A DNA stretch of 64,000 nucleotides. Origin: Tepidanaerobacter syntrophicus. Lineage in GTDB: Bacteria; Bacillota; Thermosediminibacteria; Thermosediminibacterales; Tepidanaerobacteraceae. The DNA lies in assembly GCF_001485475.2 (NCBI RefSeq), contig NZ_DF977000.1:310001-374000 (forward strand). Direction: 5' to 3'. Shown piece by piece: positions 25,334-42,817 of the stretch; the stretch's first letter is position 1; every line of letters starts with the position of its first letter. The notes below the pieces were generated by a model. It saw only the letters and a list, made by a program, of their open reading frames with translations. It had not been told where the DNA came from and searched no databases. The position numbers and the translations under genes were made by a program.

Positions 25334-26380
25334 TTAAACAGGCTCCAAGCTATTTTCGTTTATCGCCTTACATGATTGGCGTATAATAAACTTTGTTTTA
25401 AGTAGAGTCCGCTGCTGGGTTTTTCTCCCCTCGATTAAATTGAATAACACTTTTGCTGAAACCTTTCCCAATTGTTCTATAGGAACATCTATAGTGGTGA
25501 GTTCAGGACTCATTATTGTAGAGTATTCATAATTATTATGACCCACTAAAGAAATATCATCAGGGATTTTTAAGTTCAATTCTTTGATGGCTTTATAGGC
25601 GCCAATTGCTTTAATATCATCTGTAGCAAAGATAGCAGTGGGAGGAGTAGGGCTTTTTAATATATTAATCGCGGCTTGATATGCATCATTTATTGTGTAT
25701 TGACCATTTTCAATAATAGAATAGTCAACAGGGAGTCCTGATTCTTTGTGAGCGGCTATATATCCTTCAAGCCTGTCCACACTTACTACATATTTTAGAG
25801 GAGCGTGTATACACCCTATTCTTTTATGGCCTAATTTTATAAGATAACTGACCGCTTCTTTGCAATCATTAAGATTATCTGTATCAACGGAGTAAACCTC
25901 ATTTGCAAGTCTTTCGTCAACAACTCGGCCCACTACTACAAAAGGTATGTTAGACTGATATAGCTTTTCTATTAGCCTGTCGTTCATTCTTGAGCTAAGA
26001 AGTATAAGCCCTTGAACAATCTTACTTTCAATCATTGATAAGCATTTTTCTATTTCTTTTTCTTCATTAAGCGCATTGTTAAGAATAATATCGTAATTTT
26101 TTTCTTCAGACACTTCGCCAATTGCCTGTATCATCAAGCTAAAGTATGGATTATGAAAAGCTTGCTGCAAAGAACGTGTAGAGACAACTCCGATGGCATT
26201 GAATGAACCGCTGCCCAAACTTTGAGCAATTCTATTGGGTTTGAAATTAAGTTTTTTTATGGCATCCATAACATTTTGCCTTGTTTTATCATTAACATTA
26301 GAAGCATTGTTTATAACTCTCGAAACGGTTGATACAGATACTCCTGCCAGTTTAGCCACATCACGTATTGTTGCACTCAC
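25334..26380 (-). CDS. ycjW: LacI family repressor of the ycj-like operon
   Basis: A 348-residue LacI/GalR regulator: DNA-binding head TIRDVAKLAGVSVSTVSRVINN at residues 4-25, hinge helix NRIAQSLGSGSFNAIGVVS, and a periplasmic-binding-protein-like ligand domain (ending in TTIDVPIEQLG). It is divergent from the sugar operon and stands where E. coli has its LacI-type YcjW. Two near-identical operators (26461-26475 and 26591-26604) in the intergenic region are its probable targets, one of them close to its own -35 element, suggesting autoregulation. The inducer is likely a glycoside or pathway intermediate. Confidence 0.88.
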   Translation of the reverse strand: MSATIRDVAKLAGVSVSTVSRVINNASNVNDKTRQNVMDAIKKLNFKPNRIAQSLGSGSFNAIGVVSTRSLQQAFHNPYFSLMIQAIGEVSEEKNYDIILNNALNEEKEIEKCLSMIESKIVQGLILLSSRMNDRLIEKLYQSNIPFVVVGRVVDERLANEVYSVDTDNLNDCKEAVSYLIKLGHKRIGCIHAPLKYVVSVDRLEGYIAAHKESGLPVDYSIIENGQYTINDAYQAAINILKSPTPPTAIFATDDIKAIGAYKAIKELNLKIPDDISLVGHNNYEYSTIMSPELTTIDVPIEQLGKVSAKVLFNLIEGRKTQQRTLLKTKFIIRQSCKAINENSLEPV

Positions 26381-26426
26381 CTTATCATCCCCTAAAATAT
26401 TTCTATATCTGCGCTCTTAGTACATA

Positions 26427-26456
26427 ATTATAATCCTAATAGTATAAAAAAGTCAA
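26427..26456 (-). promoter_or_regulatory. Promoter of the LacI-type regulator
   Basis: On the minus strand TTGACT (26456-26451) and TATAAT (26432-26427) are 18 bases apart. The operator at 26461-26475 abuts the upstream side of the -35 element. Confidence 0.65.
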
Positions 26457-26460
26457 TGAA

Positions 26461-26475
26461 AAAACCGGTTTCATA
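26461..26475. promoter_or_regulatory. LacI operator O1 (distal)
   Basis: AAACCGGTTT, a perfect palindrome with the CG centre typical of LacI/GalR sites, followed by CAT. The sequence ACGGTTTCATAA-like right half is shared with the second site 130 bases downstream, so a looped repressor tetramer is possible. Confidence 0.7.
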
Positions 26476-26586
26476 ACATATAATGTGACAAAATATTTTA
26501 ATAATGAAAAATGAAGAAAATCAAAGAAAAATCAAGTATATGCGGAAAATTTATTTTAAGTTCCTTTAAAACGAAACATTATAAAA

Positions 26587-26615
26587 TTGTAAAAACGGTT
26601 TCATAATGTTATAAT
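26587..26615 (+). promoter_or_regulatory. Promoter of the ycj-like operon with internal operator O2
   Basis: TTGTAA (26587-26592) and TATAAT (26610-26615) are 17 bases apart. The LacI-type half-site AAAACGGTTTCAT (26592-26604) lies in the spacer, where a bound repressor would exclude polymerase. Confidence 0.75.
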
Positions 26616-26650
26616 GAAAACCAATAATAAAATTAAAAGGGGAGTTAGAG

Positions 26651-27973
26651 ATGAAAAAGTTTTTAGCCCTGCTGATAGTTATGGTTTTAATGGTAAGTGC
26701 TGTTGGTTGTGCATCAAATTCTTCAGAAAATACTACCCCAGGAAAAGATAGTGAGACAAGCGAAGAAGTAAAAATTCAATTCATGCACACGATGATTGAG
26801 CAAGAAAGGCAAGAGATAATCGATGGCATAATAAAAGATTTCGAGGCGAAGAATCCAGGTATTAAAGTTGAGCAGATGCCTACTGATGAAGACAGCTATG
26901 AAACAAAAATTACTGCATTAGGTAATAGCGGAGAACTTCCGGCTATAATGGAAATGAGTCAAGATCAGGCGAAACTCAATGCAAAAAATGAATTTATTGA
27001 TTTTGCCGCAGTTAAAGAGGTTATTGATTCAAAGGGCGAGAGCGCTTTCTTCGATGGAATTTTGAACGTTATCAAAACTGAAGACGGCACAAACTATACG
27101 GGAGTGCCTATAGGCGGTTGGGTACAAGGAATATGGTATAACAAAACTGCATTTGAAGAGAAAAATTTAGCGGCGCCAGATACTTGGGATAATATATTAG
27201 CTGCAGCGAAAGCCTTTTCCGATCCCGCTAACAAAAAGTACGGCATAGCAATACCAACTGCCAATGATGGTTTTGCCCAGCAAGGTTTTTCACAGTTTGC
27301 CCTTTCTAACAATGCGAACGTTTTGGATGCAGACTGCAAAGCAACATTTAACACCCCTGAGATGATTGAGGCTTTGGCATTCTACAAATCATTATATGAG
27401 TACACTATGCCGGGCTCAAATGATGTAACTGCTGTCAGGGATGCGTTTATGAATGGATCAGTGCCCATGGCAATTTACTCTACATATATGATTCCGTCTC
27501 TTTATGAAGCAGGTAAGATGGAAGAAGTAGGTTTTGCCATTCCTAAAAATAAAGTAAGCGCAGCATACGGGCACGTGGGCTTGATAACAATAAAGGCTGA
27601 TATGCCTGAAGCAGAAAGGACCGCGGCTATAAAATTTGCAAGTTATTTATTAGATGATGAAGTGAATATAAAATGGCTGCACATGTCGCCTGGTGGCCAG
27701 CAACCGGTCTTAAAATCTGTAGCGGCTTCGGATAAATATTTAGACAACCCGGTTATCCAATCTTTTGCCGGAATCGCCGATGATATTGCAGGAGCCTTTA
27801 ACAGTTTGCAAGCCTTTGGTTCAGTTAACGGTAAAAATTTCTTGATAATGGGCGATATTACAAGTAGCGGGATTATATCTAATGCAGTAAATCGAGTTAC
27901 AGTCAAAGGCGAAGATCCGGCAAAGGTCGCAAATGAAACAAATGCTGAAATAGAAGCTCTGTTAGAACAATAA
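26651..27973 (+). CDS. ycjN: Sugar ABC transporter substrate-binding lipoprotein (YcjN-like)
   Basis: A 440-residue extracellular binding protein of the carbohydrate (CUT1) class. The signal peptide MKKFLALLIVMVLMVSAVGC ends in a lipobox with lipidated Cys20. The mature part has the family pattern GGWVQGIWYNKTAFEEKNLAAPDTWDN and DAFMNGSVPMAIYSTYM. It precedes two permeases and the ycj-type enzymes, so it probably captures a gluco- or gulo-disaccharide. The gap to the permeases contains an attenuator-like hairpin, commonly used to keep binding protein in excess. Confidence 0.9.
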   Translation: MKKFLALLIVMVLMVSAVGCASNSSENTTPGKDSETSEEVKIQFMHTMIEQERQEIIDGIIKDFEAKNPGIKVEQMPTDEDSYETKITALGNSGELPAIMEMSQDQAKLNAKNEFIDFAAVKEVIDSKGESAFFDGILNVIKTEDGTNYTGVPIGGWVQGIWYNKTAFEEKNLAAPDTWDNILAAAKAFSDPANKKYGIAIPTANDGFAQQGFSQFALSNNANVLDADCKATFNTPEMIEALAFYKSLYEYTMPGSNDVTAVRDAFMNGSVPMAIYSTYMIPSLYEAGKMEEVGFAIPKNKVSAAYGHVGLITIKADMPEAERTAAIKFASYLLDDEVNIKWLHMSPGGQQPVLKSVAASDKYLDNPVIQSFAGIADDIAGAFNSLQAFGSVNGKNFLIMGDITSSGIISNAVNRVTVKGEDPAKVANETNAEIEALLEQ

Positions 27974-28017
27974 AGATAAGTGCGGTAAAATATACTTGTA
28001 GAAGAAATTAGTATTGT

Positions 28018-28075
28018 TTCCCCTGTATATTGAAATTACACAGTTATTCGCGGTATGCAGGGGAACGTTTTCTTC
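28018..28075 (+). terminator. Intercistronic attenuator hairpin
   Basis: TTCCCCTG (28018-28025) pairs with CAGGGGAA (28058-28065), followed by CGTTTTCTTC. Placed between binding-protein and permease genes, it may terminate part of the transcripts. Confidence 0.55.
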
Positions 28076-28105
28076 ACCTAAAAATAATCATTAGGAGCAT
28101 AAGCT

Positions 28106-28978
28106 GTGAAAAGATTAAAAGAATCCCATTTTGCTTATATATTATTGGCACCATGTATCTTACTTGTTTTGCTGCTAATCGGCTACCCTATGATTAATAA
28201 TATCATAATAAGTTTTTATAAAATTCCGTTAAATCCTAAACTTCCATCTGACTTTATAGGATTAAAGAATTACATTGACACATTTTCTGATATAAATTTT
28301 TATAAGTCATTAGTTACTACAATCCTATTTACAGCCTCAGTAGTTGTACTTAGCACAGCGTTAGGTCTGTTTGTAGCCATATACATAAATAGAGAATTTA
28401 AATTTAAAAAAACAGTAAAAGCGCTAATAATCCTGCCTTACATTGTTCCGTCCATTGCTTTGATTTTTTCATGGAAATATATGTTTAATAACATATATGG
28501 CGTTGTCAATTACATTCTAGTGGATGTTCTTCATTTATTTAATGCTGCCCCTCTTTGGTTTGACAATGAATACAGCGCATTTATATTAGTTGTTTTATTT
28601 TCGGTGTGGAGATTCTTCCCGTATGCCTTTATATCCTTTTATGCAATACTACAAACCATAGATAGCAGCCTATATGAAGCAGCGGAAATTGATGGTGCCA
28701 ACGGTTGGCACAAGTTCAAATATATTACAATACCTGAAATAATGCCTGTATTAGCAACAATAGTAACACTGAGGACAATTTGGGTTTTTTATATGTTTAC
28801 GGAAGTTTACCTTCTAACAAAAGAAGTTAATACTATAAGCGTCTACCTTTACATGGTTGCCTTTGCAAGAAAAGATATGGGCAAAGCGGCTGCCATTTCT
28901 ATTATTCTATTTATAATAATATTTACTATAATACTCAGCGGCAGAAAGAGGGTGCTCAAAGATGCCGGCAGTGAATAA
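28106..28978 (+). CDS. ycjO: Sugar ABC transporter permease (YcjO-like)
   Basis: A 290-residue MalF-type permease with six transmembrane helices and the cytoplasmic EAA loop SSLYEAAEIDGANGWHKFKYITIPEIMPV near residue 190. It begins with a family-typical SHFAYILLAPCILLVLLLIGYP helix. GTG start at 28106 after an AGGAGC site. It overlaps the second permease by 17 bases. No ATP-binding subunit is encoded in this operon; a shared MsmK-type ATPase elsewhere is presumed. Confidence 0.92.
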   Translation: MKRLKESHFAYILLAPCILLVLLLIGYPMINNIIISFYKIPLNPKLPSDFIGLKNYIDTFSDINFYKSLVTTILFTASVVVLSTALGLFVAIYINREFKFKKTVKALIILPYIVPSIALIFSWKYMFNNIYGVVNYILVDVLHLFNAAPLWFDNEYSAFILVVLFSVWRFFPYAFISFYAILQTIDSSLYEAAEIDGANGWHKFKYITIPEIMPVLATIVTLRTIWVFYMFTEVYLLTKEVNTISVYLYMVAFARKDMGKAAAISIILFIIIFTIILSGRKRVLKDAGSE

Positions 28979-29807
28979 AAAGATTTTAAAAAATATATTA
29001 TTTTATGTTGGTTTAATAGTTTTTTTAGCGGCAATACTGTTTCCTTTTTTAATTATGTTTGTAGTTTCTATAAAAACTACAAACGAAGCTATCCAATTTC
29101 CACCGACATTTTTACCTAAAAACATAACTTTCGAGCATTACAAGAGTATTTTTAATCCTAGGATATTTCCATTTTTGACATATTTTAAAAACAGTATGTA
29201 CGTTTCCGTGTTGTCCTCTTTTATTTCCGTGGCTTTGGGGATTTTAGGGGGATATAGTCTGTCAAAGTTGAAATTTATGGGGAAAACGGTCATAAATAAT
29301 GGCTTTTATTTAGTATATATGTTTTCGGGCATACTTTTAGTAGTGCCTCTATTTAAAATAATTTCAGCAATTGGATTGTACAACCATAGAGAGGCGCTAA
29401 TAATTACAATGATTGTGCAGACGCTTCCCACGTCTATCTATATGTTAAAAAGCTATTTTGACACAATACCCGTTGAAATAGAAGAAGCCGGACGCATCGA
29501 CGGTCTGAATAGGTTACAAGTCATTACTTATATAATTATTCCACTTTCGCTGTCTGGCATAGTTTCGGTTTTTGTATACGCCTTTATGGTTGCATGGAAT
29601 GATTTTTTGTTTGCTTCTATTTTCTTAAGCTCATCAGATATGTTTACTCTATCTATAGGCTTAAACTCACTGTTTAATCGACCTGATTACATTTGGGGCA
29701 GGATGATGGCATCCGCCATAGTAACCTCAATACCCGTTGTCCTAATGTATGGAGCAAGCGAACTGCTTATGCGCAAAGGCGCAACTGAAGGCGGAGTAAA
29801 GGGTTAA
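28962..29807 (+). CDS. ycjP: Sugar ABC transporter permease (YcjP-like)
   Basis: A 281-residue MalG-type permease: FLAAILFPFLIMFVVSIKTTNEA at the start, the EAA loop VEIEEAGRIDGLNRLQVITYIIIPLS near residue 175, and six helices. It pairs with the 290-residue permease upstream, which it overlaps, to form the channel. ATG 28962 follows an AAAGAGGG site inside the upstream gene. Confidence 0.92.
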   Translation: MPAVNKKILKNILFYVGLIVFLAAILFPFLIMFVVSIKTTNEAIQFPPTFLPKNITFEHYKSIFNPRIFPFLTYFKNSMYVSVLSSFISVALGILGGYSLSKLKFMGKTVINNGFYLVYMFSGILLVVPLFKIISAIGLYNHREALIITMIVQTLPTSIYMLKSYFDTIPVEIEEAGRIDGLNRLQVITYIIIPLSLSGIVSVFVYAFMVAWNDFLFASIFLSSSDMFTLSIGLNSLFNRPDYIWGRMMASAIVTSIPVVLMYGASELLMRKGATEGGVKG

Positions 29808-29841
29808 ATAGTAGCTGCTTATACTTTATAGGAGGATTTCT

Positions 29842-30834
29842 ATGAAAAGCCTAAGAATAACATCAAACGAAGATGCAAAGATATATTTATTAGAAGAAGA
29901 AGTAGATGATCCATCTGATACACAGGTTCAAGTGGAAGTGATAACGTCAGTAGTGAGCCCGGGGACCGAAAGAGCATTTATATTGAGCATGGAAAACACT
30001 GATAAGAGCTATCCCAGAACTTTAGGTTATAGTGTTGCGGGCATAGTAACAAAAGTCGGCAGTAATGTTAAAGGATTTAAGCCTGGAGACAGAGTTGCAG
30101 GAATCCTTGCCCATAGGACAATCGGTAATATAGAACAGCATAATTTGGTGCATATTCCTAATGGGGTAACTTTTGAAGAAGCTGCTTTTGTTAGAATAGG
30201 TGTTATTGCTATGCAAGCCGTCAGAAAAGCAAGGATAGAGCTTGGAGAAGGAGTTTTAGTTTTTGGCCTTGGACTGATAGGTCAAATGGCTATGCAGCTT
30301 GCAAAAGCTAATGGGGCATTGCCTATTATAGGTATAGATGTTGTTGAAAGCAAGCTTGAACTTGCTAAAATAAATGGCTGTACATATACATTCGATGCCA
30401 ATATGAAAAATCTGGAACAAGAATTCAAGAATGTGAATAATGGCTGCCTGCCTCAGGTAGTAATTGAATCCACAGGTTTTCCCGAACCAATTAAATTATC
30501 ATTGCGATATGCATGTAATTTGGGCAGGGTAATAATTTTAGGCAGTACTCGCGGAAACACAGAAATTAATTTTTATAAAGATATACATAAAAAAGGGCTT
30601 GTTGTTATTGGAGCGCATATTTCTACCAATCCTGCAATGCAATCCTATACCGCTCATTGGTGTTTCAGAGATAATGCTCTTTGTTTTTTAAATCTTTTAA
30701 AAGAAAAAAGAATAAACGTAACCTCTTTGATATCACAGAAAGAAAGTTTTGAGAAATTCAACAATATCTATAAAAATGTTTTGGAAAGAAACGATGATTA
30801 TATAACTTCTGTTATTACCTGGAAATGGAGATGA
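29842..30834 (+). CDS. MDR-family dehydrogenase without zinc ligands, first copy in the operon
   Basis: A 330-residue medium-chain dehydrogenase/reductase. The GroES-like domain has LGYSVAGIVTKVGSNVKGFKPGDRVAG, where zinc enzymes have GHE; with no Cys/His set it probably lacks catalytic zinc. The Rossmann domain has LVFGLGLIGQMAMQLAKA and binds NAD(P). It is only distantly related to the YcjQ-like enzyme at 33308. With the adjacent Gfo/Idh/MocA protein and GH4 enzyme it may form a second sugar-oxidation module. Its substrate is unknown. ATG 29842 follows AGGAGG. Confidence 0.85.
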   Translation: MKSLRITSNEDAKIYLLEEEVDDPSDTQVQVEVITSVVSPGTERAFILSMENTDKSYPRTLGYSVAGIVTKVGSNVKGFKPGDRVAGILAHRTIGNIEQHNLVHIPNGVTFEEAAFVRIGVIAMQAVRKARIELGEGVLVFGLGLIGQMAMQLAKANGALPIIGIDVVESKLELAKINGCTYTFDANMKNLEQEFKNVNNGCLPQVVIESTGFPEPIKLSLRYACNLGRVIILGSTRGNTEINFYKDIHKKGLVVIGAHISTNPAMQSYTAHWCFRDNALCFLNLLKEKRINVTSLISQKESFEKFNNIYKNVLERNDDYITSVITWKWR

Positions 30835-30838
30835 TTAG

Positions 30839-31834
30839 TTGAAGGAGATTGTAAATTTTGCCATTATCGGATTAGGGTCTATATCGACAACCCATATTGC
30901 AGCCTTAAAAGAAATCGATGAAGCCAATCTAGTCGCTGTATATGACAGAACTATAGAAAAAGCAAAAAAAGTAGCAGCTATGGAAAATGTCAAGGGGTAT
31001 AGCGATATTGATTTATTACTGAAAAATGAGGATATTGATGCAGTAATTATCTTGACAGCCAGTGGACTGCACGCAGATTTAGGCATAAAAGCTGCTCAGG
31101 CAAAAAAGCATGTTATAGTAGAAAAACCTATAGATATTAATGTCAATAAGGCAAGGGACTTAATAGAACATTGCAAGAGAAACAATGTTAAGCTGAGTTG
31201 TATTTTTCAACATCGTTTTGACTCTGATATTTTAAACTTAAAGAAAGCGATAGATGAAAATAAACTGGGAAAGTTAAATTCCGGTTGCTGCCATACAAAA
31301 TGGTTCCGTCCACAGGAGTATTATAATGAAGTGGCATGGAGAGGCTCTAGAGAACTTGGCGGCGGCGCCCTTATTAATCAAGGCATTCATCAGTTAGACT
31401 TATTTCAATATTTAATGGGGGATGTTGAAGAAGTCTATGGATATGCAGAAACCCTTGCTCATGTAGATATTGATGCAGAAGATGTTGCTATGGCTGTGCT
31501 AAAGTTTAAGAATGGTGCGATAGGTATTCTTGAAGCTAATGTTTGCGCATATCCGGGTTTTAATACCAGAATAGATATCTCAGGCAATGATGGTACAGTT
31601 ATATTGGAAAATAACACTGTTAAGCAGTGGAAACTGAGAAACGGTGAGGAATATGCAGGTTCAGAAACGGTTTTCCCTCACAAAATTCAATTACAGGACA
31701 TTGTTTCTGCAATCAAGGAAAACAGAGAGCCGGCGGTAAACGGCGAAGAAGCACTGAAATCCTTAATATTAGTTGATGCAATATATAAATCAAGCACAAC
31801 GGGTAAACCAATAAAGGTCAATTACAATACTTGA
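30839..31834 (+). CDS. Gfo/Idh/MocA family oxidoreductase, first copy
   Basis: A 331-residue NAD(P)-dependent sugar dehydrogenase-type protein: Rossmann start FAIIGLGSISTTHIAALK, catalytic Lys in VEKPIDIN near residue 97, and the substrate-side motif GGGALINQGIHQLDLFQYLMG with His. It begins with TTG 30839 four bases after the preceding stop. Proteins of this family in glycoside pathways often oxidise or reduce C3 of the sugar ring, which fits the operon; the exact substrate is unknown. A second, different member (YcjS-like) is encoded at 35182. Confidence 0.88.
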   Translation: MKEIVNFAIIGLGSISTTHIAALKEIDEANLVAVYDRTIEKAKKVAAMENVKGYSDIDLLLKNEDIDAVIILTASGLHADLGIKAAQAKKHVIVEKPIDINVNKARDLIEHCKRNNVKLSCIFQHRFDSDILNLKKAIDENKLGKLNSGCCHTKWFRPQEYYNEVAWRGSRELGGGALINQGIHQLDLFQYLMGDVEEVYGYAETLAHVDIDAEDVAMAVLKFKNGAIGILEANVCAYPGFNTRIDISGNDGTVILENNTVKQWKLRNGEEYAGSETVFPHKIQLQDIVSAIKENREPAVNGEEALKSLILVDAIYKSSTTGKPIKVNYNT

Positions 31835-31846
31835 TAGAGGTGCTGT

Positions 31847-33232
31847 ATGAAATACTCAGAAAATAGCTGTTCTGATATTAATATTTGTTATATTGGCGGT
31901 GGTTCTCAAGGATGGGCATGGAAATTAATGAGTGATTTGTATTTGGAGGAAAGCTTGTCCGGGACGGTAAGGCTTTATGATATTGATAGCAAATCAGCTG
32001 AAACCAATGCCATTATCGGGAATATCATTTCAGGATATGAAGAAGCAAAAGGACATTGGACTTACAAAAGCGTTTCAACGCTGGAAGAAGGCTTATCAGG
32101 AGCCGATTTTGTCATAATATCAATTACGCCGGGGACGTTTAAGGAAATGTTTTCAGATGTTCACACTCCGGAAAAATACGGAATTTATCAGCCCGTAGGA
32201 GATACTACCGGCCCAGGCGGTATATTTCGGGCATTAAGAACGATTCCAATGTATGAAGAGATTGCAAACTCTATTAAAAGATACGCTAAAGATGCATGGG
32301 CGATAAACTATACTAATCCCATGTCGATTTGCGTGGCTACGTTATACGCCGTTTTTCCTGAAATAAAAGCCTTTGGTTGTTGCCATGAAGTTTTTGGAGC
32401 TCAAAGACTTTTGCTGATGGCTTTAAAGGAATTTGAAGGTATTGAGGAAACAGACAGGCATAATTTAAACACCAATGTTTTAGGGATCAACCATTTTACA
32501 TGGATCAATGAAGCAAGCTATAAAACTTATGACCTAATGCCCATATATGACAGACTTGTCAAAAAGTATTATAAAGATGGGATTTGTGATAAGATTACCG
32601 ACGTTCATTTTATGTCAAAAAACCTGGTCAAATTTGATTTATATAGAAGATATGGAATTATTGCAGCAGCAGGAGACAGGCATCTTGCAGAATTTGTGCC
32701 TGACTACGCCAGAGATAAAAAAACAATAGCTCAATGGGGTTTCAACCTTACTCCCGTAAATTGGCGCATAGAGAACAAGGCAATGCTCGCAAAATTGAGC
32801 AGAGAATATGCTAATAAAGAGAAGAAAGTACCTATAACGGCATCTGGCGAAGAGGGCGTGCGCCAAATAAAAGCGCTGCTAGGCTTAAAGGATATAATTA
32901 CAAATGTGAATCTGCCAAATCATAATCAGATGGATTGCGATGAAGGCATTGTCGTTGAGACTAATGCGCTATTTACAAAAAACAGTGTACGTCCTTTGAC
33001 TGCAGGCAAGCTGCCTGATGAAGTTAACTTGATAATGAGTGTTCATATGAATAATCAAAAAGCAATACTTAAGGCAGGGCTTGAAAAGAAAAAGAAGTTA
33101 GCTTTTGCCGCATTTTTAAATGATCCATTAGTTAAAAATATCAGCATCTCTAATGCAAAGGCATTGTTTAATGAGATGTTTTCAAATACACGGCAATATT
33201 TGACAGGATTTGATTCTATACCTATTAGATAG
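31847..33232 (+). CDS. Glycoside hydrolase family 4 alpha-glycosidase
   Basis: A 461-residue GH4 enzyme. Evidence is the NAD-binding CYIGGGSQGWAWKLMSDL start, VGDTTGPGGIFRALRTIPM, the metal-binding pair in GCCHEVFGAQ (Cys179, His180), GINHFTWINEA, and GDRHLAEFVPDY. GH4 enzymes use NAD+ and a divalent metal to oxidise C3 of the glycoside, then eliminate the aglycone. The sequence belongs with the alpha-glucosidase/alpha-galactosidase group; the sugar cannot be told. E. coli's ycj cluster has no such gene, so this is an addition. Confidence 0.9.
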   Translation: MKYSENSCSDINICYIGGGSQGWAWKLMSDLYLEESLSGTVRLYDIDSKSAETNAIIGNIISGYEEAKGHWTYKSVSTLEEGLSGADFVIISITPGTFKEMFSDVHTPEKYGIYQPVGDTTGPGGIFRALRTIPMYEEIANSIKRYAKDAWAINYTNPMSICVATLYAVFPEIKAFGCCHEVFGAQRLLLMALKEFEGIEETDRHNLNTNVLGINHFTWINEASYKTYDLMPIYDRLVKKYYKDGICDKITDVHFMSKNLVKFDLYRRYGIIAAAGDRHLAEFVPDYARDKKTIAQWGFNLTPVNWRIENKAMLAKLSREYANKEKKVPITASGEEGVRQIKALLGLKDIITNVNLPNHNQMDCDEGIVVETNALFTKNSVRPLTAGKLPDEVNLIMSVHMNNQKAILKAGLEKKKKLAFAAFLNDPLVKNISISNAKALFNEMFSNTRQYLTGFDSIPIR

Positions 33233-33307
33233 ACACAAAAAAATTAAGGCTTAGAACTTAAAAATGTATAAGATAACAAACTATTATTTTTAAAAGGGTG
33301 ATATATC

Positions 33308-34363
33308 ATGCCAAGACAATTGGTAGCTGTAGCGCCGCGCGTGGCGGAAATAGTAGAATACGAAGATAGAGAAATTTTGCCAAATGAAGTAAAAGTTAAA
33401 GTTGAATATGCTGCGCCAAAGCATGGAACGGAATTGACGGATTTTAGGGGCAACAGCCCATTTTTGAAAGAAAAGTACGATAGCGAATGGCACATGTTTG
33501 TTCCGAGAGCAAAAGAGGAACAAACCGAAATAGTCTTCGGCAAGTGGAACTTAGGAAACCAATGGGTTGGTAGAATAATAGAAAAAGGCAGCGAGGTAAA
33601 GGATTATGAATTAGGTGATAGAGTATGTTCTTATGGAGGCATTAGGGAGACCCATATTGTTAATGCCGTAAACAACTACCGACTGCGAAAACTTCCAGAA
33701 AATGCCTCTTGGAAAAATGCACTGTGTTATGATCCGGCACAATTTGCTATGGGCGCAGTAAGAGATGCCAATATAAGAGTAGGCGATAGGGTTGCGGTGT
33801 TCGGATTAGGCGCCATAGGACAGATTGCTGTTCAACTATGCAAGAAAATGGGGACAAGCCTTGTTGCTGCTATAGATCCGATTGAGATAAGAAGACAGGT
33901 AGCCAAGAAAAACGGAGCAGATGTTGTTTTAGATTCCACGACGACGGATGTAGGAATGGAGCTTAAAAAATTGACAGAAAAGATGGGAGTCGATGCAGTA
34001 GTTGAGACCAGCGGTCATCCGGCGGCACTGCAAAGCGCGTTGAGAGGTCTTGCTTATGGCGGAATCATTGCATACGGAGCATTTGGAAAGGAAATAACCG
34101 GAGGTCTAAATTTTGGGAAAGAGGCCCATTTCAACTATGGCAGAATTGTTTTTTCCAGAGCTTGCAGCGAGCCAAATCCAGAATATCCCCGCTGGAACAG
34201 GAAAAGAATAGAAGAAGTTTGCTGGGAACTCTTAACCAATGGATACCTGAACTGTGAAGATATTATAAACCCTGTAGTGCCTTTCGAAAAATCTGCAGAG
34301 GGATATATGAAATATGTAGATAGGGAGCCGCACCTAAGCATAAAAATGGGCGTGGAGTTTTAG
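33308..34363 (+). CDS. ycjQ: YcjQ-like D-guloside 3-dehydrogenase
   Basis: A 351-residue MDR-family dehydrogenase. From memory it closely follows E. coli YcjQ along its whole length: APRVAEIVEYEDREILPNEVKVKV, APKHGTELTDFRG, AVNNYRLRKLPENASWKNALCYDPAQFAMG, and FSRACSEPNPEYPRWNRKRIEE. The E. coli enzyme interconverts D-gulosides and 3-keto-gulosides with NAD. The Rossmann motif is VFGLGAIGQIAVQL. It directly precedes the YcjR-like epimerase and YcjS-like dehydrogenase, the two enzymes of the next steps. ATG 33308 follows AAAAGGGTGA. Confidence 0.88.
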   Translation: MPRQLVAVAPRVAEIVEYEDREILPNEVKVKVEYAAPKHGTELTDFRGNSPFLKEKYDSEWHMFVPRAKEEQTEIVFGKWNLGNQWVGRIIEKGSEVKDYELGDRVCSYGGIRETHIVNAVNNYRLRKLPENASWKNALCYDPAQFAMGAVRDANIRVGDRVAVFGLGAIGQIAVQLCKKMGTSLVAAIDPIEIRRQVAKKNGADVVLDSTTTDVGMELKKLTEKMGVDAVVETSGHPAALQSALRGLAYGGIIAYGAFGKEITGGLNFGKEAHFNYGRIVFSRACSEPNPEYPRWNRKRIEEVCWELLTNGYLNCEDIINPVVPFEKSAEGYMKYVDREPHLSIKMGVEF

Positions 34364-34372
34364 GAGGTTATT

Positions 34373-35194
34373 ATGAAACTTGCAACTCAGGATAAACCAT
34401 TTTACTCCAGCGAAATTGAACAAAAACTTTTGGAGATAAGAGATATGGGCTTTGATGCCTTTGAAATTGATGGCGCATATCTTATTGAAAAGTTTGATAA
34501 AGTAGAGGCAGCAGTGAGAAATACTAGTGTCGATATTTCTAGTGTATGCGGAGGATATAGGGGTTGGATAGGGGACTTCAATGAAGAAAGACGCATGCAG
34601 GCAATATCTGACATCGAAAATATACTTAAGCGCGCAGGTTCAATAGGGGCTAAAGGCATAGTAGTCCCGGCTGCATGGGGAATGTTTTCATTAAGGTTAC
34701 CTCCTATGGTACCTCCAAGGAGCCCGGAAGAGGACAGATATGTTCTCTTGGACTCGCTAAAAAGGCTTGATAATATAGCAGGTTCTACAGGCACAGCTAT
34801 TTTTCTTGAGCCTTTGAACAGGTACGAAGATCATATGATAAATACCTTGGAGACAGCAAAACAATTAATTTGCGACGGTGGGTTCAAAAATGTAAAAATA
34901 ACCGCAGATTTTTTCCATATGAACATTGAAGAAAAGAATATTGCAGAAAGTATTTTAAAATATAAGGAATTTATAGGACATGTCCATATTGCAGACAGTC
35001 ACAGGTATCAACCTGGGGACGGGCACCTTGATTTCGTCGAGGGTTTCAGAGCGCTGCTTGATATAGACTATAAAGGATACATGGCTTTTGAATGCAGGGT
35101 TTTAGGCGAAAATCCTGCCGAGGAATATAAGAAATCTGTTGAATATATAAAAGAATGTATCGCAAGGGCAAGGTGGAGTAAATGCAAAAACTAA
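34373..35194 (+). CDS. ycjR: YcjR-like 3-keto-guloside C4 epimerase
   Basis: A 273-residue TIM-barrel protein of the xylose isomerase-like epimerase superfamily, very like E. coli YcjR: FEIDGAYLIE, CGGYRGWIGDFNEERRMQAI, GIVVPAAWGMFSLRLPPMVPPRS, LEPLNRYEDHMINTL, DFFHMNIEE and GHVHIADSHRYQPGDGHLDF. Glu, Asp, His and Glu in the last segments bind the metal. In E. coli it epimerises C4 of 3-keto-gulosides to 3-keto-glucosides. It lies nine bases after ycjQ and overlaps ycjS by 13. Confidence 0.88.
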   Translation: MKLATQDKPFYSSEIEQKLLEIRDMGFDAFEIDGAYLIEKFDKVEAAVRNTSVDISSVCGGYRGWIGDFNEERRMQAISDIENILKRAGSIGAKGIVVPAAWGMFSLRLPPMVPPRSPEEDRYVLLDSLKRLDNIAGSTGTAIFLEPLNRYEDHMINTLETAKQLICDGGFKNVKITADFFHMNIEEKNIAESILKYKEFIGHVHIADSHRYQPGDGHLDFVEGFRALLDIDYKGYMAFECRVLGENPAEEYKKSVEYIKECIARARWSKCKN

Positions 35195-36222
35195 GAGTCG
35201 GTATTATAGGTGCAGGCCAGATCGTAGAAACAGCACATATCCCTGCCTATATAAAACACAGAGATATAGTCGAGCTGACAGCTATTTGTGATATAAACGA
35301 AGAAAAAGCAAGGCATATGGCAGACAAATACGGTATAGCAGCTTATTATAAAGATTACCAAGATATGCTAAAAGAATGTAAGCTTGATGCAGTAAGCGTA
35401 TGTGTTATAAATCGGTTTCATGCTCAGGCTGCCGTAGATGCATTGAATGCAGGATGCCATGTATTGTGCGAAAAACCTCCTGCTATGAATTATGAAGAAG
35501 CCTTAGCCATGTATGAAGCTTCAAAGAAAAATAAAAAAATACTTACATTCAACTTTCATTTTAGACATGCTCAGGAAATTAAAATTTTAAAAGAATTGAT
35601 AGACAAGGGAATGTTCGGCAACATATATGCAGCTAGGGTTCAGGCTTTGCGGAGAAGAGGTATTCCTGGGTGGGGGAACTTTATTAACAAAGAAGTTCAA
35701 GGCGGTGGTCCGCTTATAGACATAGGAATACATATGCTAGATGCAGCCCTGTATCTGATGGGTTTTCCTGAGCCTGATTATGTGGCCGCAGGAGCCCATC
35801 AGAGAATTGGAAACCGGTCCGGCGTAGGGCTTATGGGTTCCTGGGACCCTGCTAAGTTTACTGTAGAGGATTCATTATTCGGCTTTATACGTTTTAAAAA
35901 TGGCGCCACATTAAATCTTGAAACATCTTTTGCCCTAAACATGAAAGAAGAATCTATTATGAATGTGCATATTTTTGGTGAAAAAGCAGGAGCATCGGCT
36001 TTTCCTCTGGAGGTATTTTCTGAAACAGATACTGCATTAACAAATATGGAATTTCCTTATCTGCAAGAAATAGATAAACGCTATGAGAGTATTGCAGATT
36101 TCATAAATAGTTGTGTTTACGGTAAAAAGCCGTTGTACAAAGCGGAAGAAAGCCTTATTATCCAAAAAATCATCGACATCATGTACAAATCCTCTGAAAC
36201 AAGCCAGCCATTAAAATGGTGA
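35182..36222 (+). CDS. ycjS: YcjS-like 3-keto-glucoside dehydrogenase
   Basis: A 346-residue Gfo/Idh/MocA protein. Segments that match E. coli YcjS are VGIIGAGQIVETAHIPAY, CHVLCEKPPAMNYEEA (catalytic Lys), ALRRRGIPGWGNFINKEVQGGGPLIDIGIHMLDAALYLMGFP and TVEDSLFGFIRFKNG. In E. coli it reduces 3-keto-glucosides to glucosides with NADH. Together with YcjQ and YcjR it would convert gulosides to glucosides. ATG 35182 lies inside the end of ycjR. Confidence 0.88.
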   Translation: MQKLRVGIIGAGQIVETAHIPAYIKHRDIVELTAICDINEEKARHMADKYGIAAYYKDYQDMLKECKLDAVSVCVINRFHAQAAVDALNAGCHVLCEKPPAMNYEEALAMYEASKKNKKILTFNFHFRHAQEIKILKELIDKGMFGNIYAARVQALRRRGIPGWGNFINKEVQGGGPLIDIGIHMLDAALYLMGFPEPDYVAAGAHQRIGNRSGVGLMGSWDPAKFTVEDSLFGFIRFKNGATLNLETSFALNMKEESIMNVHIFGEKAGASAFPLEVFSETDTALTNMEFPYLQEIDKRYESIADFINSCVYGKKPLYKAEESLIIQKIIDIMYKSSETSQPLKW

Positions 36223-36278
36223 TATCAAAAGTTTCTTTTAGAATTAAAATATAGAACTAACAAGGAGAAAATGTAGCG

Positions 36279-38639
36279 ATGCTGCTATATGATTGCGGAA
36301 ATAAGGAATATAAAAATTGGATCATATGTGAAACTTCTTTTGATGCACAGCTACTGGGAAAATGCGAATCAATCATGGCTTTAGGAAATGGTTACATGGG
36401 TCTTAGATCGTCAATGGAAGAAAATTATACAAAGCAAACTCGAGGCCTCTTTATAGCTGGAACCTTTAATAAGTTTGACTGTTATGAACCCTCAGAACTA
36501 CCTAATGCCGCAGACGTAGTCGAACTAGAAATTGTGCTTAACAATGAAGTTTTTTCTCTTGAGAAAGGGGTTATATATTCATACCAAAGGAGTTTAAATT
36601 TAAAGACAGGCGAGTTGGCGCGCCATATAATCTGGGAAAGTCCGAGCAAAGATAAGTATAAACTTTGCTTTAAACGATTTGTTTCACTGGATAATTTACA
36701 TCTGATTGGCATGAAAGTTTATATTACACCCTTGACTGGCGAATCTTGCATCCGGGTCACTTCGGGTATAAATGGCCAAATGACTAATTCAGGAGTGCAG
36801 CATTTCCACGAAGGCGAAAAGCGAATATATGACCAAAATATAATGGAATTTATTCAGACTACTTGCCAATCAAAAATTGATTTTATATTTCATTCTGGTC
36901 ATACATGGAAAATAGACAGCGACAAGCAAATTCCAACTCCAAGAATGATTATAAGCCGCCGCAAATTAGAAATGATGTATGACTTTATGATTCCCAAAGG
37001 GAAAACTTTAATAATGGAAAAAATATGTACAGTTCATACCAGTCTAGACAAATCTTATTGCTATAAAGAATATAGTTTGCAAGACTTACGTGATAAGACT
37101 TTAACTGAATTTATAGAGCTGAATCGTAAAGGATATGATTTATTATTTAATGAAAGTGCTAAAAAGTGGAAAAGGTATTGGAAAGAAGTAGATATAAAAA
37201 TCGAAAGCAAAGATTCCTTTGACCAGTTGACAGTTCGATTTGCTCAATATCATCTATTGATTATGACACCTGCTCATGACTCGAGATTTGGAATAGGTGC
37301 AAAAGGCTTAACAGGCGAAGGCTATAAAGGTCACACATTTTGGGATTCGGAGATTTTTATTCTTCCATATTTTACTTTTACAAACCCGCAAATTGCGCGA
37401 AAACTGTTGGAATACCGCTATCATACTCTAAATGGCGCACGAAAAAAAGCTATAAAAAACGGATTTGAAGGCGCTATGTATCCTTGGGAATCAGCTTTTA
37501 CCGGTGATGAAGAAACGCCTGAATGGGGCGCCGTAAACATACTAACGGGAGAAGCGACAAGGATATTATCAGGATTGAAGGAACAGCACATAACCTGTGA
37601 CATTGCTTATGCCTTATGGCAATATTACAAAGCTACACAAGACATAGACTTTATGAAGAAATACGGCAGTGAAATATTATTTGAAACAGCTTCGTTTTGG
37701 GCAAAGCGCGTTGAGTGGGATGAGGAGAAAAAATCTTACTGTATAAATGATGTAATAGGACCTGATGAATACAAAGAACAGGTAAATAATAATGCTTTTA
37801 CTAACTATATGGCCCATTGGAATATACAAACAGCTATTAACCATTATAGAGAATGCAAAGAAAAGATGCCTCAAACCTTCAAGAGATTAAATAAGAAATT
37901 AGATTTGGAACGTCGATTTAAACTTTGGAATGAAGTAGTTGACAAGATATACTTACCTCAACCTAGAAAAACCGATAAGGTGATTCCTCAGGATGATACC
38001 TATCTATCTAAACCCTTGATTGACATAACGAAATATAAAAATGCTTCTGCCATGCAAACGATTTTGCAAGATTATAGTCGGGAACAGGTCAACAACATGC
38101 AAGTTTCAAAACAAGCAGATGTGGTTATGCTATTGTATTTGCTAAAGGATAAATTTTCAAAAGATGTAAAAGAAGCAAACTGGCAGTATTATGAGCCGAA
38201 AACCCTTCATGATTCTTCCTTAAGTTTGTCTGTACATTGCATAGTAGCTTGCGATATTAATGACAAAAATACTGCATATGACTTTTTTAAAAAAGCAGCT
38301 CAAATTGACCTTGGCCCGAATATGAAATCTTCAGATTTAGGGATACATGCTGCTTCCCTTGGAGGGATATGGAAAGCTATTGTTTTCGGTTTTGCAGGAA
38401 TCAGCATCGAAGATGATAAATTACACATAAACCCTAAAATCCCACCATTGTGGCTTAAACTGAAGTTGCCATTAAAGTTTCAAGGCTACAACATGGAAAT
38501 TGAAATTACACGTGATTGTGTTCAAATAAAAAATAAAACAAAAACCGATTATCCATTAGAAATTTTTATAGGGAATGATAAATATTTGCTCAAAGAGAAG
38601 TTAAGAGTGGATTTACAAGGGGTTAGCCCGCAAAAATAG
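36279..38639 (+). CDS. ycjT: GH65 disaccharide phosphorylase, kojibiose phosphorylase-like (YcjT)
   Basis: A 786-residue GH65 inverting phosphorylase. It has an N-terminal beta-sandwich (ALGNGYMGLRSSMEENYTKQTRG) and an (alpha/alpha)6 barrel from about 300 with MTPAHDSRFGIGAKGLTGEGYKGHTFWDSEIF and the general acid Glu497 in VIGPDEYKEQVNNNAF. The phosphate side contains VSKQADVVMLLY and DSSLSLSVH. The sequence tracks E. coli YcjT, a kojibiose phosphorylase that yields beta-glucose 1-phosphate and glucose. Trehalose or nigerose specificity cannot be excluded without assay. The product feeds the phosphoglucomutase at 40446. Confidence 0.9.
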   Translation: MLLYDCGNKEYKNWIICETSFDAQLLGKCESIMALGNGYMGLRSSMEENYTKQTRGLFIAGTFNKFDCYEPSELPNAADVVELEIVLNNEVFSLEKGVIYSYQRSLNLKTGELARHIIWESPSKDKYKLCFKRFVSLDNLHLIGMKVYITPLTGESCIRVTSGINGQMTNSGVQHFHEGEKRIYDQNIMEFIQTTCQSKIDFIFHSGHTWKIDSDKQIPTPRMIISRRKLEMMYDFMIPKGKTLIMEKICTVHTSLDKSYCYKEYSLQDLRDKTLTEFIELNRKGYDLLFNESAKKWKRYWKEVDIKIESKDSFDQLTVRFAQYHLLIMTPAHDSRFGIGAKGLTGEGYKGHTFWDSEIFILPYFTFTNPQIARKLLEYRYHTLNGARKKAIKNGFEGAMYPWESAFTGDEETPEWGAVNILTGEATRILSGLKEQHITCDIAYALWQYYKATQDIDFMKKYGSEILFETASFWAKRVEWDEEKKSYCINDVIGPDEYKEQVNNNAFTNYMAHWNIQTAINHYRECKEKMPQTFKRLNKKLDLERRFKLWNEVVDKIYLPQPRKTDKVIPQDDTYLSKPLIDITKYKNASAMQTILQDYSREQVNNMQVSKQADVVMLLYLLKDKFSKDVKEANWQYYEPKTLHDSSLSLSVHCIVACDINDKNTAYDFFKKAAQIDLGPNMKSSDLGIHAASLGGIWKAIVFGFAGISIEDDKLHINPKIPPLWLKLKLPLKFQGYNMEIEITRDCVQIKNKTKTDYPLEIFIGNDKYLLKEKLRVDLQGVSPQK

Positions 38640-38732
38640 GGTTAGTAATCTTGCTTCATGGTTGAAATTAAAAGCTAAATGGCATTTCCTTTTTAGCAAA
38701 AATGCATTATGTATCCATATTGGAGGTTGACG

Positions 38733-40427
38733 ATGGTAATACAAGAAGAAATCAATTGGGAAAAAAGCATTTTTAAAAAATTAGAATTTTTATATGGAAC
38801 TCAAAGTAATTTAATCCTTGAAGATATCAAAGCATTGGTTAAAAAATACAAGCATAAAAAAAAGCCTTCTAAATCTTGGGTAGATGAAAATGATATAATT
38901 TTAATTACGTATGCGGATTCCATATATGAAAACGGACAGCTGCCTCTAAAAACTTTAAAGGAGTTTTTGGTTACTTATGTTAAAGATTCCATAAGCGCTG
39001 TACATATTTTGCCATTTTATCCTTACTCATCTGATGACGGGTTTTCTATCATTGATTATCGTCAAGTCAATCCAAAGCTGGGAGATTGGTGGGACATAAA
39101 GGCCATAGGCGAGAACTATGATTTAATGTTTGATGCGGTCATAAATCACGTATCAAAAAGCAGTGAGTGGTTCCAAAATTTTTTGGCAGGACATGAAAAG
39201 TACAACGATTACTTTATTGAAGCCGATCCTAACGGGGATTATAGCAAGGTGTCTCGGCCTCGTGCTTTGCCACTTCTTACACCATTTGAAACGGTGAACG
39301 GAAAAAAATATTTATGGACTACCTTCAGTGAAGATCAAATCGATCTTAATTACAAAAACCCGGCAGTGCTATTAGAGATTCTTGAAATTTTAGCGATGTA
39401 TGCTGCTAATGGCGCTCGCTATATTCGACTTGACGCCATAGGGTTTTTATGGAAGAAAAAAGGTACTACTTGTCTGAATCTGGACGAAACCCATATGGTG
39501 GTAAAAATAATTCGCGAAGTACTAGACAAAGTAGCACCAGGTACGATTTTAATTGCTGAAGCCAATGTTCCACACAAGGAAAATATAAGTTATTTTGGGG
39601 ATGGATATGATGAAGCACATATGGTATATCAGTTTGCTCTTCCACCCCTGACCTTATTTTCTTTTTATACCGGTAACGCTCAAAAGCTGCTTCAATGGGT
39701 TGATAATTTAAAACAGACCTCAGAAATGACAACATACTTAAATTTTCTTGCATCTCATGATGGCATTGGCATGCGTCCAACAGAAGGGATTCTAGAAGAA
39801 GAAGAAAGAGACCTGATGTTAAAAACCACTATTAAACATGGCGGGCTGATTTCATATAAAGACAACGGAAATGGGACAAAATGCCCCTACGAATTAAATA
39901 TAAATTATTTAGATGCTCTAACTGATAGCAAGGAAGATGATACAACCCGTGTTAATAGATTTTTAGCCGCTCATGGAATTCTATTGTCCCTTGTCGGAGT
40001 GCCGGGTATTTATATTCATAGCTTACTTGGTTCAAGAAACTATTATAAAGGTGTCCAAGAATCAGGGATTTATCGCAGAATTAATCGTGAAAAGCTAGAA
40101 AAAAATATCCTATTTGCTGAATTAGAAACAAACACGATTCGCAGAAATATTTTCTATGGGTTATCCCGATTAATTAGCATAAGAAAAAAACAAAGCGCCT
40201 TTAGTCCAAGAGCAACTCAGAATGCTTTATTCCTAGATAGTCGTGTATTTTCTGTTTTAAGAACTAATGAAGATACAGGGGATCAAATTTTGGCCATGAT
40301 AAACGTTTGCGGCGAGACAGTGCTGATTAATACAGCTTATTCAGGATATGAGCTGATAAGTAACAGGCGATTGGAAAATCAATTTGTTTTACAACCTTAC
40401 CAAATTATGTGGGTGAAAATCAGCTAA
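38733..40427 (+). CDS. ycjM: GH13 sugar phosphorylase, glucosylglycerate/sucrose phosphorylase type (YcjM)
   Basis: A 564-residue GH13 subfamily 18-like protein. The catalytic set is Asp234 (YIRLDAIGFLWKK), Glu276 (LIAEANVPHKEN) and Asp343 (FLASHDGIGMRPTEG). Residues near HILPFYPYSSDDGFSIIDY form the first conserved region. E. coli YcjM of the same subfamily phosphorolyses glucosylglycerate; sucrose phosphorylases belong to the same subfamily. ATG 38733 is taken because GGAGGTTGA lies seven bases upstream; an earlier ATG at 38709 has no site. It releases alpha-glucose 1-phosphate. Confidence 0.88.
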   Translation: MVIQEEINWEKSIFKKLEFLYGTQSNLILEDIKALVKKYKHKKKPSKSWVDENDIILITYADSIYENGQLPLKTLKEFLVTYVKDSISAVHILPFYPYSSDDGFSIIDYRQVNPKLGDWWDIKAIGENYDLMFDAVINHVSKSSEWFQNFLAGHEKYNDYFIEADPNGDYSKVSRPRALPLLTPFETVNGKKYLWTTFSEDQIDLNYKNPAVLLEILEILAMYAANGARYIRLDAIGFLWKKKGTTCLNLDETHMVVKIIREVLDKVAPGTILIAEANVPHKENISYFGDGYDEAHMVYQFALPPLTLFSFYTGNAQKLLQWVDNLKQTSEMTTYLNFLASHDGIGMRPTEGILEEEERDLMLKTTIKHGGLISYKDNGNGTKCPYELNINYLDALTDSKEDDTTRVNRFLAAHGILLSLVGVPGIYIHSLLGSRNYYKGVQESGIYRRINREKLEKNILFAELETNTIRRNIFYGLSRLISIRKKQSAFSPRATQNALFLDSRVFSVLRTNEDTGDQILAMINVCGETVLINTAYSGYELISNRRLENQFVLQPYQIMWVKIS

Positions 40428-40445
40428 TTTATTGAGGTGATATTC

Positions 40446-41099
40446 TTGCGGTATGAGGCAGTTATCTTTGACCTGGATGGAGTTATTGCTGATACAGCAA
40501 AATTTCATTATGAAGCTTGGAAGAAAATAGCTGAAGAATTAGGAATTTATTTCGATGAAAAAATCAATGAAAGTCTTAAGGGAGTTAGCCGAATGGAAAG
40601 TCTAGAAATCCTTTTGAAGCAAAGCGAAAAAGAATACTCCCAGGAACAAAAAAACTATTTTGCGTCAAAAAAGAATGATTACTTTAAAAGCATGATACAA
40701 AAAATAACACCCGGCGATATATTGCCCGGCAGTATAGAATTAATAAAGATATTGAAAAGATATAACGTAAAGTTAGCCGTAGCATCGGCTAGCCGCAACG
40801 CAAACACAGTTTTAGAAAACTTGGGCATAAAGAGCGAATTCGATTATATTGTAGATGCTGCAAAAATAGTAAATGTAAAACCTGATCCGGAAATATTTCT
40901 TGCGGCTGCAGAAAATTTAGGAGTAGAACCGAAAAAGTGTGTTGGTATAGAAGATTCAGTGGCTGGAATTGAAGCAATTAAAAGAGCGGGAATGTTTGCT
41001 ATAGGCATAGGAGATCCGACAATATTAAAAAAAGCCGATATGGTATTAGAAGATCTAAGATACACACAAAAAATTGTAAAATTAGTTATCGGGGAATGA
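40446..41099 (+). CDS. ycjU: Beta-phosphoglucomutase (YcjU-like)
   Basis: A 217-residue HAD-superfamily phosphomutase: nucleophile Asp9 and acid/base Asp11 in VIFDLDGVIADTAKFHYEAW, KGVSRMESLE substrate loop, ASASRNANTVLENLG, and GIEDSVAGIEAIKRAGM. It converts beta-glucose 1-phosphate to glucose 6-phosphate, draining the product of the GH65 phosphorylase. TTG 40446 is preferred because GAGGTGA lies just before it; GTG 40437 overlaps that site. Last gene of the operon. Confidence 0.92.
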   Translation: MRYEAVIFDLDGVIADTAKFHYEAWKKIAEELGIYFDEKINESLKGVSRMESLEILLKQSEKEYSQEQKNYFASKKNDYFKSMIQKITPGDILPGSIELIKILKRYNVKLAVASASRNANTVLENLGIKSEFDYIVDAAKIVNVKPDPEIFLAAAENLGVEPKKCVGIEDSVAGIEAIKRAGMFAIGIGDPTILKKADMVLEDLRYTQKIVKLVIGE

Positions 41100-41941: not shown

Positions 41942-42817
41942 CTATTTTTGAAATAAGAAGGTCATATAGCTTGTAGTTTCTATTATGTCACTTCCAAGCA
42001 ATATGCCTGAGTTGGTGTGGCTTACCAGTGTAAAATCAGGGATGCCGGCGTTTTCCATGGCAAAAAATAATGTGGCTAAAGACGCGGGAGAGTCCAGATG
42101 GTCATTTCCCATTAAAAAAATACTGTCCCAATTGTTGTCGTTTAGAGCTTTTAAAGTTTCTTTATCCATTTTTGCCGCTTCATCAGCAGTCAGATAATGA
42201 GAAAAATCCACTGAAGCTACAATTGCTGCTCCGTTTTGAATCAAGGACAAAAGGTTTTCAGCCAGCTTCTTTGTCTCTTTTTTTGATACATCATAATGAC
42301 ATATAATAGGCAGCACCTTAGTATTTGGCAAGTAATATTTTATAAAAGGCATGAGGTTGCCCATGGAGTGCTCGCCATCAAATACATACTCATCTTCTTT
42401 TGCTATATTGTAAGATACTAAGTAATCTACAGCTTCTATGTCTGCTTCTACCGTCCCAAAAGGCGTCTGCCATCCCAGCCGACTTACTAAAATTTTTGGA
42501 CCCAGGTTTTTATGGTTAGGTCCCACCAAAATCAGCAAGTTGGGCGGTGCGTTTTGCATTTTGGAAAAGACATCGGCTATCATCCTGTGTGCCAGCAGAT
42601 GATGAGGCACTACAGCTCCCCGAATCTTTTTATTCGAAGGAATCGGCTTTTGAGAAGATTCAGGTTTAAAATATCTAGGATCGAAGAAATTATTAGGGTG
42701 AACCTTAGAGGAGGAGGAAAATTGAGGCAAAAATTTCTCCTCCTCTGTTTTATTTGAGGCGCCTCCAATTACAAACATAACACAAAGTATTACAAAAAAT
42801 ACAGCTCTCCTCTTCAT
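41942..42817 (-). CDS. Exported Memo-like (AmmeMemoRadiSam system B) protein
   Basis: A 291-residue protein with an N-terminal hydrophobic export or anchor segment (MKRRAVFFVILCVMFVIGGAS) and a Memo-family domain: GAVVPHHLLAHRM, ILVGPNHKNLG, WQTPFGTVEAD, EHSMGNLMPFIKYYLP, and ASVDFSHYLTADEA, ending in SGILLGSDIIET. Human MEMO1 and bacterial relatives bind metal through His residues in the PHH and PNH segments; the third ligand, a Cys, is not evident. It overlaps the alpha-2-macroglobulin gene by four bases, so the pair is co-translated. Function unknown. Confidence 0.85.
   Translation of the reverse strand: MKRRAVFFVILCVMFVIGGASNKTEEEKFLPQFSSSSKVHPNNFFDPRYFKPESSQKPIPSNKKIRGAVVPHHLLAHRMIADVFSKMQNAPPNLLILVGPNHKNLGPKILVSRLGWQTPFGTVEADIEAVDYLVSYNIAKEDEYVFDGEHSMGNLMPFIKYYLPNTKVLPIICHYDVSKKETKKLAENLLSLIQNGAAIVASVDFSHYLTADEAAKMDKETLKALNDNNWDSIFLMGNDHLDSPASLATLFFAMENAGIPDFTLVSHTNSGILLGSDIIETTSYMTFLFQK

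Follow-up and report, generated by a model that had tools for sequence, protein, structure and literature searches.

In Tepidanaerobacter syntrophicus, the window (the whole stretch of 64,000 nucleotides that was analysed) contains between positions 25334 and 41099 a LacI gene and, diverging from it, twelve genes that all point the same way in the list of open reading frames (Table 1). The LacI gene is followed by the genes for a binding protein, two permeases, MDR1, GFO1, GH4, MDR2, EPI, GFO2, GH65, GH13 and a beta-phosphoglucomutase (beta-PGM). With BLASTP, ten of the 13 products matched proteins of the E. coli K-12 ycj cluster nearly full length with 40-64% identity (E <= 6e-60), so that relatives of YcjW, N, O, P, Q, R, S, T, M and U are all present between these positions. 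The reciprocal ycj identity rules out a chance operon or a collection of merely generic families. The locus is one regulated operon that is genuinely related to the ycj operon for sugar conversion in E. coli, and this copy of it appears intact. The spacing is 4-13 bp inside MDR1-GFO1-GH4 and inside the Q-R-S genes, and 34-133 bp for most other neighbours.

An earlier note had named the ycj-like genes and read their order as Q, R, S, T, M, U; it was correct in both respects. These are long ORFs on the same strand with LacI divergent. Its description as the same set as in E. coli holds for the ten homologues but is incomplete, because GH4 and two extra dehydrogenases are also present and had been overlooked. 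Nine enzymes are encoded, not the seven that it had counted, and the added genes it left unnamed are MDR1, GFO1 and GH4. Compared with ycjMNOPQRSTU-W of E. coli K-12, the key residues of the YcjR and YcjT homologues are conserved, whereas the gene order differs, homologues of the YcjV ATPase and of OmpG are absent, three enzymes are added and the TETN of YcjM is changed to AEAN. No gene for an ABC transporter ATPase was found within the cluster. Further downstream in the window, at 42814-47661, a predicted protein of 1615 aa looks by eye like a member of the alpha-2-macroglobulin family and is adjoined by a possible MEMO-family gene.

Table 1. Genes and putative operators of the ycj-type operon (positions in the window)
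Feature	Position	Strand	Remarks
LacI-family regulator, YcjW-like	25334..26380	-	41% to YcjW
Putative LacI operator 1, AAACCGGTTTCATAACAT	26462..26479	+	pattern twice in genome, both here
Putative LacI operator 2, AAAACGGTTTCATAATGT	26592..26609	+	pattern twice in genome, both here
Substrate-binding lipoprotein, YcjN-like	26651..27973	+	44% to YcjN; PF01547
ABC permease, YcjO-like	28106..28978	+	63% to YcjO
ABC permease, YcjP-like	28962..29807	+	63% to YcjP
MDR1, extra MDR dehydrogenase (graft)	29842..30834	+	PF00107/PF08240
GFO1, extra Gfo/Idh dehydrogenase (graft), WlbA-like	30839..31834	+	best solved relatives 3q2k, 3q2i
GH4 NAD-dependent glycosidase (graft), LplD/alpha-galacturonidase type	31847..33232	+	PDB 3fef match, CHEV motif
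MDR2, YcjQ-like guloside 3-dehydrogenase	33308..34363	+	64% to YcjQ
EPI, YcjR-like 3-keto-guloside/3-keto-glucoside 4-epimerase	34373..35194	+	50% to YcjR, PDB 6wn6
GFO2, YcjS-like glucoside 3-dehydrogenase	35182..36222	+	48% to YcjS
GH65, YcjT-like kojibiose phosphorylase	36279..38639	+	40% to YcjT; best PDB match 3wiq
GH13_18 phosphorylase, YcjM-like	38709..40427	+	47% to YcjM; signature A283-E284-A285-N286
Beta-phosphoglucomutase, YcjU-like	40437..41099	+	TIGR01990 275 bits (cut-off 189); 45% to YcjU

The sequence AAAMCGGTTTCATAAYRT was found in two copies upstream of the binding protein gene and in none elsewhere in the 2.43 Mb genome with one mismatch allowed. The reversed pattern, used as a control, had 0 occurrences in the genome. 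The confinement of this pair to the binding-protein promoter suggests that the LacI regulon is probably a single operon. Scans of promoters and terminators gave scores no higher than those of shuffles.

Conservation of the core enzymes

The homologues of YcjQ, YcjR and YcjS are encoded together and contiguously, and their identities extend over the full length. For EPI, the best match in the PDB was YcjR (6wn6) with 304 bits, followed at a distance by the next match with 101 bits. E146, D179, H205 and E240 are invariant in the alignment; we take them to be the metal and acid-base residues of the sugar-isomerase fold in YcjR. In a comparison of about 70-80 ycj loci, zero deviations at near-invariant columns were seen for EPI and GFO2, and one each for MDR2 and GH65. 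The three enzymes MDR2, EPI and GFO2 resemble YcjQ, YcjR and YcjS far more than they resemble other known families, which bears out their naming in the earlier note, and the active-site alignment it had proposed showed that the YcjR metal and catalytic residues and the kojibiose-phosphorylase residues are retained.

The best PDB match of GH65 was the kojibiose phosphorylase 3wiq (487 bits). Kojibiose phosphorylases carry the pattern EEAPxx at 64/392/394/402 and WET at 391/392/417 (PMC8537180). E64, W391, E392, A394 and P402 are all found in GH65, and position 417 holds Ser in place of Thr; this residue is shared with the characterised YcjT and deviates slightly from the published WET. The functions of YcjQ, R, S, T, M and U in E. 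coli have been catalogued (PMC11543891). Judged by these alignments, MDR2, EPI and GFO2 likely convert gulosides to glucosides, GH65 likely phosphorolyses kojibiose, and both are most likely to function as they do in E. coli. Solved homologues are available for EPI, GH65 and GH4.

Distribution and mosaic ancestry

Relatives of YcjR are encoded in 298 genome stretches. The best 80 of these 298 include stretches from Bacillus, Listeria, Enterococcus, Paenibacillus, Caldicoprobacter, Spirochaetota, Sebaldella and Enterobacterales and mostly contain near-complete ycj sets. Full operons were found in dozens of Bacillota, and also in Spirochaetota, Fusobacteriota and Enterobacterales and on conjugative plasmids. 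The pathway is no novelty for the Firmicutes, since the sets in the five Bacillota genera named first are complete and the Firmicute operons and their distribution have been published (PMC11543891).

The cluster was present in one of 22 genomes of the order and in one of 398 genomes of a phylum sample, in both cases that of T. syntrophicus itself. Vertical inheritance in this lineage is rejected on these samples, and lateral acquisition of the operon is supported. The idea of a transferable route is upheld by this absence from the 21 other genomes of the order and the rest of the phylum sample, and by the relatives on conjugative plasmids. In Enterobacter hormaechei, a conjugative IncHI2A plasmid (NZ_AP025834.1) carries a near-complete ycj cluster together with psp genes, adjoining qnrB6, and in Priestia megaterium a mobilizable plasmid (NZ_CP018877.1) carries another cluster; 56 of the 64 plasmid YcjR matches were typed as conjugative.

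In the tree of Q-R-S, the operon was grouped with Caldicoprobacter and a Clostridia MAG with a support of 96. The two Caldicoprobacter loci (L003, L009) have the closest Q-R-S (78/72/68-69%) and the closest GH65 (53-54%), but their transporter is of another lineage, the GH4 graft is missing and TETN is kept. The transporter was grouped with Paenibacillus sp. OV219 and Sebaldella. This Paenibacillus locus (L058) shares the gene order apart from the three-gene insert and has the closest transporter (61% over the binding protein and both permeases), whereas its Q-R-S are of another lineage and it has TETN and no graft. When Q-R-S was held with Paenibacillus OV219 or the transporter with Caldicoprobacter, the AU test rejected the placement (p-AU 5e-60 and 1.1e-41, respectively); the forced alternatives were 186 and 352 log-likelihood units worse. 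The GH13 enzyme was grouped with a third set consisting of Lihuaxuella, Thalassobacillus and Paenibacillus. The insert is positioned exactly at the junction of transporter and enzymes. The operon is a mosaic in its ancestry, and recombination between two lineages likely produced it; hidden paralogy could mimic conflicting trees, so recombination is likely but short of proof.

The inserted genes, the altered phosphorylase and the substrate

The insert MDR1-GFO1-GH4 (29842-33232) separates the permease genes from that of the YcjQ homologue. Of the 81 other ycj loci that were fetched, none has it. GH4 is similar over its full length to LplD (PDB 3fef) with 453 bits, the next match having 82 bits, and shows CCHEVFG aligned to 3fef. 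The CHEV motif of LplD-type alpha-galacturonidases is named in a reference of PMC4650693; CHEV may not set the specificity. The closest relatives of GH4 in the phylum have 54-61% identity (BLASTP), and one adjoins genes for KduI, an SDR and a KDPG/KHG aldolase in a pectin/uronate cluster. The known homes of LplD-type GH4 genes are uronate or other transporter clusters, whereas this GH4 is inside a ycj operon; haloarchaeal GH4 clusters that we checked were also without ycj genes. Since the T. syntrophicus genome has UxaC and a KduI-family gene, galacturonate released by GH4 could be used.

GFO1 shares with 3q2k and 3q2i the motif W.RPQEYY....WRG. Both are WlbA, dehydrogenases that act at C3 of a UDP-sugar uronate. 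MDR1 is a distant member of the MDR family, its best relatives in the 398-genome phylum sample having 33-36% identity, and a conserved MDR1-GFO1-GH4 cassette was not found elsewhere. MDR1 and GFO1 are not recent duplicates of MDR2 and GFO2, as the identities are 30% and 27%, respectively. Since the exact three-gene graft recurs nowhere that we found, it is the position in the operon that ties it to the pathway; that GH4 keeps its uronate specificity in the ycj context is what we infer.

Glucosylglycerate phosphorylases (GGaP) are marked by (T/S)ETN at beta-strand 5 and a Glu in loop A (PMC7178133). The YcjM-like enzyme reads AEAN at 283-286 in place of the first and retains the second (PYE), together with the catalytic Glu and Asn286. 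T283A and T285A are unique to it among 78 aligned sequences, as both threonines are present in the 77 other ycj YcjM proteins; the ycj homologues that were checked, as well as seven other relatives, read TETN. Because (T/S)ETN is replaced, the function as glucosylglycerate phosphorylase, which the earlier note had taken over from E. coli, is uncertain. In the M. silvanus GGaP, Asn275 and Glu383 were mutagenised (PMC7178133), and their counterparts are apparently retained here (N286 and the loop-A Glu), so that the enzyme may still use glycerate. The simplest reading is that the acceptor site is probably changed or relaxed; the alternative is a neutral change.

Taken together, we think with a probability of about 0.6 that this is a laterally acquired, mosaic catabolic operon of the ycj type under its own LacI repressor, in which the graft extends the route to an alpha-galacturonoside. 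The ABC importer would take up a small glycoside with an ATPase supplied from elsewhere. MDR2 would oxidise C3 of a gulo-configured (C4-axial) residue, EPI would epimerise C4 of the 3-keto sugar and GFO2 would reduce C3 to give the glucoside. GH65 could then phosphorolyse an alpha-1,2-glucosyl unit to beta-glucose 1-phosphate, which the mutase would convert to glucose 6-phosphate. MDR1, GFO1 and GH4 would probably extend this route to the alpha-galacturonoside, where GH4, itself a C3-oxidising NAD enzyme, would release galacturonate for processing by the UxaC of the host. The YcjM-like enzyme may still phosphorolyse an alpha-glucoside, with glycerate probably replaced by an altered or less strictly defined acceptor. 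The true sugar substrate probably differs from that of the E. coli operon because a glycosidase and two dehydrogenases were grafted into a two-lineage mosaic and the glucosylglycerate signature was lost.

We consider it unlikely that the locus is an ordinary ycj operon for the E. coli substrate, where GH4, MDR1 and GFO1 are passengers of recombination, AEAN is neutral and GGaP activity is kept. The core residues are intact, the GH13 enzyme keeps the three residues named above and a glycerate kinase is encoded outside the operon, all of which would fit. However, two near-invariant positions are changed among the 78 homologues, both within the published signature, and the three inserted genes are unbroken, in frame, oriented like their neighbours and separated by gaps of just 4 and 12 bp, unlike a decaying passenger. 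We regard it as very unlikely that MDR1, GFO1 and GH4 form a galacturonide or galactoside pathway of their own, which would use the same promoter and transporter but be chemically unlinked to Q-R-S: relatives of GH4 do occur in ycj-free uronate or transporter clusters and MDR1-like and GFO1-like (Gfo/Idh) genes adjoin each other in two other clusters (L092, L104), but L063 and L069 independently carry a different, CHSV-type GH4 inside ycj-like clusters, which hints at a substrate link between GH4 and ycj. These two loci are from Bacilli MAGs and also contain a glycerate kinase and a GT4 glycosyltransferase.

To our knowledge, no natural substrate of a ycj pathway is established, even in E. coli. 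YcjN bound zero of the sugars tested in a thermal-shift screen (PMC11543891). A glycerate kinase (PF02595) was found inside or adjoining 24 of the 81 fetched ycj loci, usually beside GH65 or PGM and mostly in Bacillus, Enterococcus and Listeria (L018, L019, L022, L024, L053, L065 and 18 more). This genomic evidence supports the view that glycerate is an end product of the route common in Firmicutes, whose substrate we infer to be a compound of the glycosyl-glucosylglycerate type. In T. syntrophicus the glycerate kinase is absent from the operon and one is encoded elsewhere in the genome. Its absence fits the altered YcjM signature but is no proof, since E. coli is also without glycerate kinase and has TETN intact.

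The ycj operon is of a known kind; new here is a mosaic with an alpha-galacturonidase-type GH4 and a broken GGaP signature. It is a doubtful further step that the operon handles a new class of compound, namely an alpha-1,2-glucoside that bears an alpha-galacturonosyl (or gulo/galacto-configured) residue and has an aglycone other than glycerate. Two C3-oxidising systems in tandem, MDR1/GFO1/GH4 and Q/R/S, would then act on it, together with a GH13_18 phosphorylase with a new acceptor specificity. Should the acceptor of the YcjM variant prove to be new, this would be a new phosphorylase specificity. Two leads on the ycj substrate are thus at hand, the operonic glycerate kinase of 24 relatives and the present variant that has lost the glycerate signature and gained a galacturonidase, and their comparison could reveal the purpose of the ycj pathway.
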